From IMG/VR virus record IMGVR_UViG_3300010430_000110, positions 1 to 44,807 of that record: 44,807 nucleotides of DNA; one strand, given 5' to 3'. The position numbers were made by a program, and so were the translations under genes. Numbering within the stretch: position 1 is the first letter of the stretch; every line of letters starts with the position of its first letter. Positions 32,052 to 37,475 of this stretch are shown piece by piece. Under the pieces are notes generated by a model. It made no database searches. It worked only from the letters and a program-made list of their open reading frames with translations, and was not told where the DNA came from. This DNA comes from a virus.

Positions 32052-32657
32052 ATGAGCACCTACCACGAAGTCCTGCAGTGGAACAAAGACAAAACCCGGC
32101 GCATAGTCCGTAGTCCAGACATGCACTGGTCTATGGATGATTTGAAGGGGGATTCCTTCAAGCCGTGGAACTCCACTGCAGTCCTGATTGAGCGCCTTAA
32201 AGAAGAGGAAAAACAATTCGAAGACCAGGTGGAACTGTACGGAGTTTGGACTTTTGCAGTCGAGCAATGGAATCCAGCACCGGGAGTCGGTTGGGAAGTT
32301 CTGGACTCAGTGTCCGGAGTAGTCGGTGATGATGATTCCGCCGGCGGTTATATGGATGATCTTCTGTACCTGATGAACCACGGCGCCGATTCCCCCGATG
32401 CAGTTCTTTCCACCCAACCTGATCAGTACTCTATTTTGTACTTCGTCCGAGCCGTCGAGGCGAAAGTGGATGATTCCTGCGACTACAAAGACTCAGTGTA
32501 CGACGTGCTAACAGATTGGTTCGGCACCGACGCTGCAGAATTTTACTACGGCCGAGTCGGTCAATCAGTCGACACGATATCCGAAGTCCTTTGCAACTTA
32601 TCCGAGCAAATGGCTCGGGAAATGATGGCTGAATCTGAAGAGGAGTCGGAGCAATGA
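32052..32657 (+). CDS. Acidic hypothetical protein
   Basis: 201 residues, about 42 acidic against 15 basic. It has an N-terminal mixed region, a Gly/Asp loop (VVGDDDSAGGYMDD), helical middle segments and an acidic tail (MAESEEESEQ). The ATG follows cassette B directly. Its stop overlaps the next start (ATGA). No family was recognised. Charge and setting would allow a DNA-mimic antirestriction role, which is speculation. Confidence 0.55.
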   Translation: MSTYHEVLQWNKDKTRRIVRSPDMHWSMDDLKGDSFKPWNSTAVLIERLKEEEKQFEDQVELYGVWTFAVEQWNPAPGVGWEVLDSVSGVVGDDDSAGGYMDDLLYLMNHGADSPDAVLSTQPDQYSILYFVRAVEAKVDDSCDYKDSVYDVLTDWFGTDAAEFYYGRVGQSVDTISEVLCNLSEQMAREMMAESEEESEQ

Positions 32658-34886: not shown

Positions 34887-34910
34887 GCCGGATGGACTTC
34901 TGCCAGGTGC
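34887..34910. other. Short spacer before the iterons
   Basis: This 24-bp stretch between the RHH-like gene and the first iteron shows no start codon with a ribosome site. It merges directly into the array, so the RHH-like gene and its candidate binding sites are physically adjacent. Confidence 0.4.
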
Positions 34911-35019
34911 GGGAATCTTTACGGATGATTTGTTTTCTCGGAGTCGGGAATCTTTACGGCGGAAAGTTTCGGAGCAGGAATCTTTACGGCGGAAAGTTTC
35001 GGAGCGGAAATCTTTACGG
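34911..35019. repeat. Iterons, four copies of GGAATCTTTACGG
   Basis: Copies begin at about 34912, 34947, 34977 and 35006. The second and third are perfect 30-bp tandem units that continue CGGAAAGTTTCGGAGC. The fourth reads GGAAATCTTTACGG and runs into an AT-rich tract. Copies every 30-35 bp put them on the same helical face within about one turn. A fifth copy lies at 30737-30754. This looks like a replication origin or a cooperative binding array. Confidence 0.85.
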
Positions 35020-35060
35020 AATTTTTTGGCGAAAATTTTTTGGCCCCTACATATATACAA
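35020..35060. other. AT-rich tract beside the iterons (candidate unwinding element)
   Basis: Immediately after the last iteron the sequence reads AATTTTTTGGCGAAAATTTTTTGG, shown here in parts: two AATTTTTTGG blocks 14 bp apart, then CCCCTACATATATACAA. In a GC-rich genome this is the most AT-rich stretch near the iterons. Iterons followed by an AT-rich direct repeat is the layout of many plasmid and phage origins. Confidence 0.5.
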
Positions 35061-35081
35061 TCGCGCCGCGGGCTCTATGTC
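35059..35081 (+). repeat. 23-bp direct repeat, left copy
   Basis: The element ends in CGCGGGCTCTATGTC and is identical to 35348-35370. The two copies bracket the 78-residue gene at 35110-35346. The last ten bases, GCTCTATGTC, recur at several other sites, all on the + strand. Confidence 0.9.
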
Positions 35082-35109
35082 GGCCCGACGAAATTTGAAC
35101 GGAGGCTCT

Positions 35110-35346
35110 ATGTCGAGCAGGAAATTTTGGTACTACGACTTCGATGGGATCGAGTTCACTGGCTTCCACCACTGTCACCCCGAAGACATCAAAGGGTTGA
35201 CCGGATACGACATGGCTACTGGTGGTCCATTCGACACCTTCTCGGAAGCCAAAGGGGATGCACTCGAAAGGGCAAGGTGTGATCTGGCCCAAGCCCGCAG
35301 CACCGTCAAGGACATCCAGGCCACCAGGAAGGCTGACTCACTATAG
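35110..35346 (+). CDS. Hypothetical protein bracketed by direct repeats
   Basis: 78 residues. The start follows GGAGG with the motif GCTCTATGTC spanning the ATG itself (35105-35114). The longer open frame from 34930 would run through the iterons and is unlikely. The protein begins MSSRKFWYYDFDGIEFTGFH and ends with a helix ERARCDLAQARSTVKDI. It precedes the recombinase, so an excisionase-like role is possible, but no HTH is evident. Confidence 0.5.
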   Translation: MSSRKFWYYDFDGIEFTGFHHCHPEDIKGLTGYDMATGGPFDTFSEAKGDALERARCDLAQARSTVKDIQATRKADSL

Positions 35347-35347
35347 A

Positions 35348-35370
35348 AATCGCGCCGCGGGCTCTATGTC
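35348..35370 (+). repeat. 23-bp direct repeat, right copy
   Basis: Identical to 35059-35081, and the 12 bases that follow are also alike (ccgccgatgaaa against ggcccgacgaaa). It lies 25 bp before the recombinase start. The pair could have been left by a cassette insertion, or both copies may be binding sites for the recombinase or an accessory factor. Confidence 0.9.
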
Positions 35371-35395
35371 CCGCCGATGAAAAAGGGCACAGACT

Positions 35396-35929
35396 ATGAA
35401 AATCCTCAGCGAAGCAGAATCCAGGACATTCTACAGAGTCCTGACCGACTCGATCGACCCGAGGGACACCTTCCTGCAACTCCTGTTCGAGACGGGAGCT
35501 CGGGTGTCGGAGTCGCTCACCCTCGGAGAAGATGACCTCGTGGGGGCGAGCCTCACCATCAGACCCCTGAAGAACTCGAACCCCCGGGTGGTCACCCTAT
35601 CCTCCGGCCTGGTGGCCAAGCTCCGCCGTCTGCCACCGGGGCGCTGGTCGAGGAGTCTGGCCGAGACGGTCAGGCTCGACTCAGTACGCCGCAGCCTGAC
35701 CCGGCACTTCCACCAGAGGACCAAGACCCTCCTGGGCCGTAGGCTGAACCTCCACAGCCTTCGACACACTGCCTTCAGCAGGCTCTATGTCGCTTCGAAG
35801 GACCTCCTCCTGGTGAAACAGTGGGCTGGTCACAAATCCATCAACTCCACCCTGGTCTACCTCCGAGTAAACAATCAGGAGGAAGCCAACCGCACCGCCC
35901 AAGACATCCTAAAGTCATTCGGGACATAG
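35396..35929 (+). CDS. Tyrosine recombinase, catalytic domain only
   Basis: 177 residues. The catalytic set is complete: R36 (TGARVSES), K59 in a beta-hairpin-like stretch, H120 and R123 (LHSLRHT), H146 (GHKSINST) and Y155 (LVYLRV). Typical phage integrases have 300-400 residues with core-binding and arm-binding domains in front; both are absent here. Size matches minimal recombinases such as FimB-like or dimer resolvases. It may integrate the genome, invert a segment, or resolve multimers of a plasmid-like prophage. Codon GGCTCTATGTC (35781-35791) includes another repeat copy. Confidence 0.88.
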   Translation: MKILSEAESRTFYRVLTDSIDPRDTFLQLLFETGARVSESLTLGEDDLVGASLTIRPLKNSNPRVVTLSSGLVAKLRRLPPGRWSRSLAETVRLDSVRRSLTRHFHQRTKTLLGRRLNLHSLRHTAFSRLYVASKDLLLVKQWAGHKSINSTLVYLRVNNQEEANRTAQDILKSFGT

Positions 35930-37083: not shown

Positions 37084-37323
37084 TACGCTGAAAGGACTCA
37101 TCTTCCCGGATGATGAACCTGGAGTTCTTGAGGCCGAGGCAACCTGCTTCGGCCTTGACTTTTCTTACCAATTTCGACAGCTTCGGCTCAGGCCGCCGGG
37201 ATTGCTTCGGGCGGCTCCTTTCTCGTTTGTGCCCACGAATGAAAAAGGGAAACCCCTGGAACCGTTGGTCTCCGGGGGTTTTCATTTGACGCTGTTCTGA
37301 AGGTCTTGATAGACAGGGGCTAC
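37084..37323. other. Untranslated stretch with terminator
   Basis: No gene is supported. A GCCGCC/GGCGGC hairpin (37192-37215) and the strong terminator at 37250-37288 lie here. An open frame from 37052 to 37300 passes through the terminator and shows no ribosome site, so I do not count it. Confidence 0.55.
37250..37288 (+). terminator. Rho-independent terminator
   Basis: An 11-bp stem (AAACCCCTGGA with TCCGGGGGTTT, one G-U pair), 10-base loop, then TTTTCATTT. It separates the XRE regulator and membrane coiled-coil genes from the tRNA-like element and the array of small genes. Confidence 0.88.
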
Positions 37324-37475
37324 GCGGGGTTGGCGGAACGGTATACGCGGCCAGTTTTGAAGAGGAGTCATGACCTCGGATTGCTGGTAGGTGCTTGAGG
37401 CAACCCGGGTTGAGAGTTGATCATCAATGCCCGGCTCGCTTAGCCTTGGGGGTTCGAATCCCTCACCTCGCTCCA
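37324..37475 (+). tRNA. tRNA-Leu-like element, 152 nt, with encoded CCA (non-canonical)
   Basis: The 5' GCGGGGT pairs over all 7 positions (one G-U) with ACCTCGC at 37465-37471, followed by T and an encoded CCA. TGGCGGAACGGTATACGC is a Leu-type D arm. The T arm is GGGGG-TTCGAAT-CCCTC (37448-37464), and GGCTcgcttAGCC before it resembles a class II variable arm. GCCAG (37350-37354) can pair with CTGGT (37384-37388), leaving a 29-nt anticodon loop and a 59-nt variable region. Normal class II tRNAs are about 85-95 nt. It may be intron-bearing, a remodelled tRNA, or an attachment site. Confidence 0.55.

Follow-up and report, generated by a model that had tools for sequence, protein, structure and literature searches.

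A tRNA-like element with a replaced anticodon arm in a phage genome and its putative kinship to a proposed class of tRNA-shaped non-coding RNAs

The element and its surroundings

The window analysed here, a stretch of 44,807 nucleotides that makes up the whole of IMG/VR record IMGVR_UViG_3300010430_000110, belongs to a phage: the 44.8-kb record carries terminase, SU10-like portal, capsid, primase and integrase genes. An element of 152 nucleotides, with the outer parts of a tRNA and a centre that replaces the anticodon arm, occupies the gap between a gene for a small membrane protein and a series of small genes. The features of the region are as follows.

35396..35929, + strand: small tyrosine integrase gene (PF00589, PHROG integrase), 1.4 kb upstream of the element
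37128..37158, + strand: terminator-like hairpin (consensus scan), 166 bases upstream of the element
37324..37475, + strand: entire tRNA-like element, with T73 and encoded CCA at its 3′ end (RF00005 match; shuffles)
37324..37330, + strand: 5′ strand of the acceptor stem, GCGGGGT (7/7 pairs with 37465-37471, one of them G-T)
37333..37348, + strand: D arm GCG..CGC with A14, G18G19 and A21 in the loop, Leu/Ser-like (sequence)
37350..37388, + strand: domain replacing the anticodon arm, stem GCCAGT/GCTGGT with an inner hairpin GAGG/CCTC (MFE fold)
37389..37447, + strand: expanded variable region, 59 nt (sequence and fold)
37448..37464, + strand: T arm GGGGG-TTCGAAT-CCCTC (sequence; Rfam alignment)
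37465..37475, + strand: 3′ strand of the acceptor stem, ACCTCGC, discriminator T73 and CCA (sequence)

The terminator-like hairpin upstream suggests that the element may start a transcript of its own; no sigma-70-like promoter was found for it. Further upstream, positions 34906-35121 and 35348-35382 of the window hold tandem copies of GGAATCTTTACGGCGGAAAGTTTCGGAGC at 30-nt spacing and repeated GCGGGCTCTATGTC boxes; these repeats, which precede the integrase gene and small genes, are possibly regulator sites. Searches via the capsid, primase or integrase gene returned either no relatives of the phage or fragments that do not contain the element. The exact 5′ end of the element has no counterpart among the viral contigs or the genome contigs, and a 27-nt form of its 3′ end occurs in no other viral contig.

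The tRNA-like outer body

A preliminary description, made from the sequence, had proposed a tRNA-Leu-like element whose acceptor stem pairs over all seven positions and which has a Leu-type D arm, a T arm and an encoded CCA. All of these parts are in place, and the acceptor strands GCGGGGT and ACCTCGC form seven pairs. Under lax filters the Rfam tRNA model RF00005 spans 37324-37472 at 32.7 bits, above the cut-off of 29, with E = 2.8e-5 for 301 bases, or about 0.004 when scaled to the whole window. At default settings, neither ARAGORN nor Rfam reports anything on the element. A search for a T arm, a 7/7 acceptor stem and a D arm in combination picks out one place in the window, positions 37324-37475, and none in 200 dinucleotide-preserving shuffles of the window. 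The tRNA-like ends of the element are significant.

The element has the 7-bp acceptor stem, D arm, T arm and CCA end of a functional tRNA, and its D arm is the one seen in kin elements described below. With tRNA-Leu it shares the D-arm sequence and a long variable region; it differs in its length of 152 nt, in the missing anticodon arm and in its discriminator base. Leucine identity requires A73 (PMC9976931), and the element has T73 instead; its acceptor end, with G1-C72, C2-G71, G3-C70 and T73, is the bacterial glycine acceptor set. The name 'tRNA-Leu-like' fits the D arm.

The centre of the element

The anticodon arm and variable region are replaced by about 98 nt. The stem GCCAG/CTGGT around a 29-nt loop, as described earlier, is present and is in fact one pair longer (GCCAGT/GCTGGT, six pairs); the domain at 37350..37388 that it closes has no 7-nt anticodon loop. 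The 59-nt variable region likewise contains the sequences from which hairpins had been drawn, namely CCGGG/CCCGG, TTGAT/ATCAA and GGCT/AGCC, the last of which could pair at 37433-37445 beside the T arm, but as structures these hairpins do not rise above chance. The same was found for the centre hairpins taken together (37350-37447), for the length of the GCCAGT/GCTGGT stem and for the GGCT/AGCC hairpin beside the T arm, and the overall fold of the element is not better than that of shuffled sequences (z = -0.62). Because the ends beat the shuffles while the fold and the centre hairpins do not, the ends are significant and the inner hairpins are candidate structures.

No homologue of the centre was found among 134 other centres, and selection on the window's own copy is for this reason not directly evident. 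When antisense pairing of the element to the phage's genes was scored, no pairing ranked above random stretches. Positions 37385-37395 perfectly complement 32055-32065 over 11 nt, within the codons that follow the start codon of a gene, and chance alone would produce roughly one match of this kind.

An intron would be a simple way to account for a tRNA gene with an overlong centre. Every single excision was considered whose product would have an anticodon stem of 5 bp, an anticodon loop of 7 nt with U33 and R37, and 10-23 nt in the variable arm, and no solution exists for this element; the best anticodon arm combined with a long variable region has 4/5 pairs and a Ser anticodon. Since no single excision restores a tRNA, the element is not a tRNA with one intron. 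Models of two intron-like insert classes, which are described further below, give no match in one case and at best 1.3 bits in the other, nor does the element have an insert in the anticodon stem after nucleotide 28-30 with an ACAGCAA or Ro60-type motif, by which the intron-like class is recognised. The element resembles tmRNA in having tRNA-like ends and an insert where the anticodon arm belongs, but it is far shorter and shows neither an Rfam tmRNA match nor a tag frame.

Long Leu-type elements in phages

The architecture is not confined to the window. A scan for a Leu-type D arm, a long gap and a T arm, whose counts are samples since the matches were picked by pattern, lists at least 120 viral loci. 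From these come at least 63 distinct elements of Leu type in the same length class, each with 6/7 or more acceptor pairs. The sole match of the first long pattern, L003, was rejected as a truncated Leu piece fused to another tRNA. The class is defined by a Leu-type D arm, a T arm, a 7-bp acceptor stem closing 127-187 nt and the lack of an anticodon arm, and the element at 37324-37475 has each of these properties. It is important to bear in mind that a shared end does not imply a shared function here, because the class was collected by its Leu-type end pattern.

Among the 63 elements listed, the commonest acceptor is AGTCAGG/CCTGACT (19 elements), a CCA is encoded in only three, and A73 is present in 47, so that T73 in the window departs from most of its kin. 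A single excision fits only 4/63, L067 and L077 among them, and reading the set with two introns gives 3 cases against 1.95 expected; a tmRNA-like tag frame occurs in 1/63. The Leu-type set shows no clear enrichment of extended anticodon stems or of hairpins next to the T arm, and k-mers common to its centres are weak. One phage contig, L088, carries several long tRNA-like elements that have the AGTCAGG acceptor in common and unrelated centres, and in two long Leu-type elements (L008 and L261) the insert itself apparently contains another tRNA-like sequence, as if one tRNA were nested in another.

Firmicutes genome contigs add at least 28 Leu-type elements that form a prophage branch (including L198, L212, L248 and L267). 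In 28/28 of the members listed the T loop is UGCAAAU and a single additional pyrimidine separates the T stem from the acceptor; 7/7 acceptor pairs are found in 27/28. Unannotated copies are present in the cultured Enterococcus phages VEsP-1, EFDG1 and 21C1, in Brochothrix phage BtpYZU01 and in Lacticaseibacillus phages R24.2 and R29.1. The Enterococcus phage copies have nearly identical ends and unrelated centres; overall, the centres of the cultured-phage copies span 0-155 nt. The copy in Enterococcus phage phiFL2A (L165:2501-2578) has lost the centre altogether, and the tRNA-like ends alone remain. In phiFL2A, BtpYZU01 and a Paenibacillus prophage, the element has a late-type regulator gene on one side and the terminase genes on the other. 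No publication on this class was found in the open literature searched. Phage elements with a tRNA body and no anticodon form a common and apparently unannotated class.

Three pairs of viral elements with homologous centres and different acceptors provide a view of how the ends evolve. Between L070 (TGTGATG/CATCACA) and L095 (AATAGTA/TACTATT), five of the seven pairs are changed on both sides; L011 (AGTCAGG) and L092 (TCCCTAG) likewise differ in 5/7 acceptor pairs, and L020 and L071 in 1/7, with all pairing kept in each case. That every pair is kept despite double changes argues that the acceptor helix is important to RNAs lacking an anticodon arm. These comparisons are evidence for the class as a whole, the window's own centre having no homologue.

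Intron-like inserts in phage tRNA genes

When a general D arm was used in the same scan, at least 65 distinct long tRNA-like elements were obtained from viral contigs. Excision of 36-65 nt restores a perfect anticodon stem, U33 and R37 in 29 of the 65 listed, against 0.26 expected; the restored anticodons stand for many amino acids, and most of the excised inserts interrupt the 5′ strand of that stem (examples are L389, L374, L395, L299, L343, L364, L318, L321, L360 and L402, among others). In one group of inserts, ACAGCAA comes after a covarying hairpin (15 cases, with 0.4 expected). Similar insert-bearing elements are found in Synechococcus phage B23, Aeromonas phage PX29, where the element is annotated as a two-piece tRNA-Leu, and Vibrio phage MS02; in PX29 and MS02 no clean anticodon loop could be derived. 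The general-type long elements are probably tRNA genes with intron-like inserts that would be removed by splicing; alternatively, the insert-bearing elements could be tRNA mimics with an extra arm.

Ro60-linked elements in cyanobacteria and phages

In cyanobacteria, tRNA-like elements of unpermuted order that share a conserved centre form arrays, with as many as 11 copies, directly adjoining Ro60 (TROVE) genes.

L284:2502-5697: Ro60-adjacent array
L196:3763-5108: Ro60-adjacent array
L223:5390-5915: Ro60-adjacent array
L178:3102-3581: Ro60-adjacent array

The centre of these elements has conserved, covarying pairs, and a model built on it matches 10/98 cyanobacterial genomes. Ro60 is close by in all ten model-positive genomes, compared with any Ro60 at all in 4/22 model-negative ones; for RtcB the figures are 10/10 and 14/22. 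The Ro60-adjacent cyanobacterial elements are Y-RNA-like. The Rfam YrlA model gives no match on the arrays, and their RNAs end in the acceptor stem, unlike published YrlA. In phages, TROVE is encoded in 9 of 11 records with inserts of the TTACTTC or GGTTATC type (L383, L387, L396, L310, L320, L357, L304, L335 and L060; not L289 and L292), compared with none of 17 records with ACAGCAA-type inserts.

A bacterial Y RNA of the YrlA type combines an unrelated stem with a tRNA-like part that comprises D, T and acceptor arms (Chen et al. 2014, RNA 20:1715, as cited in PMC7790460 and PMC8394870), and RNAs of this type have been reported in phages (PMC12282133, PMC7765460). The phage element resembles YrlA in having a tRNA-like domain. 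It differs in that its 5′ and 3′ ends form the acceptor stem, while the large stem of YrlA is formed by that RNA's own 5′ and 3′ ends (PMC8394870); the order of parts is circularly permuted between the two. The window also contains neither a Ro60 gene nor an Rfam YrlA match.

Possible origins of the element

The preliminary description had left three options open: a tRNA with an intron, a phage attachment site derived from a host tRNA gene and a remodelled tRNA mimic with a putative regulatory role. A tRNA gene with one or two introns, that is, a phage tRNA once it has been spliced, gains credit from the general-type long elements and from the few Leu-type ones (L067 and L077 among them) in which an excision works. 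For the window we consider it very unlikely, in view of the failed excision test, the poor best arm with its Ser anticodon, the silent insert models and the fit to only 4/63 of the Leu-type elements listed. That the centre might bind a phage or host Ro60 (Rsr), with the tRNA-like part serving as effector module as in bacterial YrlA, is improbable: cyanobacterial elements with the unpermuted order do adjoin Ro60 genes, and TROVE is encoded in nine phage records with corresponding inserts and in one Leu-type record (L021), but that record is the only one with TROVE among 18 Leu-type viral records tested, the 44.8-kb record encodes neither TROVE nor RtcB, and the Ro60-linked centre model (R1) has no match in the window.

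On a further account, the locus would be a tRNA gene that has decayed or been interrupted, or a piece of an attachment site that was copied from a tRNA gene of the host, and it would not act as an RNA. The integrase gene 1.4 kb away, the lack of a homologous centre and the unremarkable fold are all compatible with such a history. Decay is countered by the intact acceptor, D and T arms and CCA, and by the same architecture with compensatory changes in many phages. As to an attachment site, the element has its 5′ half and a complete acceptor helix, and its exact 23-nt 3′ end occurs in 0/299 Pseudomonadota genomes and in no other viral contig; the suggested comparison with host tRNA 3′ ends turned up no att core in this one phylum, which is a weak test. 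We regard either form of this account as unlikely, though less so than introns or a Ro60 ligand. The mimic is the best supported of the three options originally listed, because its architecture recurs in many phages with compensatory acceptor changes.

A proposed tRNA-shaped non-coding RNA

On balance, we favour the reading that the element encodes a non-coding RNA which is shaped like a tRNA body but lacks an anticodon, its ends acting as a shell for processing and stability and its centre as the effector. The fold of the ends is established by the analyses above; transcription, processing and function are predicted from sequence. The transcript would be cut by RNase P at its 5′ end and trimmed at its 3′ end, and an end like that of a mature tRNA would keep the RNA stable. 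It would be unable to decode codons. The centre would be the working part, carried on a natural 'tRNA scaffold', and may bind a protein or an RNA, for example a host tRNA-binding enzyme or a defence nuclease. One possible function is to act as a decoy that engages tRNA enzymes or nucleases directed at anticodons, an idea that has been raised for YrlA (PMC7790460).

The scaffold has a laboratory precedent. RNAs are stabilised in E. coli by a tRNA scaffold that retains the acceptor, D and T arms and carries an insert where the anticodon arm would be (PMC3753655), and the phage element has the same three arms and an insert at the same place. The laboratory scaffold is a product of engineering, to which the phage element would represent the natural counterpart. 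More tentatively, we suggest that natural tRNA-scaffold RNAs may form a large, diverse class in phages to which the window's element would belong, in which near-constant ends recruit the host's tRNA processing enzymes and fast-changing effectors take the place of the anticodon arm.

Perspectives

Genes of this kind are missed by tRNA finders at default settings, and they are unannotated in the cultured phages that were checked. The inserts in phage tRNA genes, some of them linked to Ro60, bear on the role of bacterial Ro60, Y RNA and RtcB. If the proposed class is real, phages would harbour many stable, structured RNAs that a search for tRNA ends can reveal, and whose centres may target host tRNA enzymes or defences.
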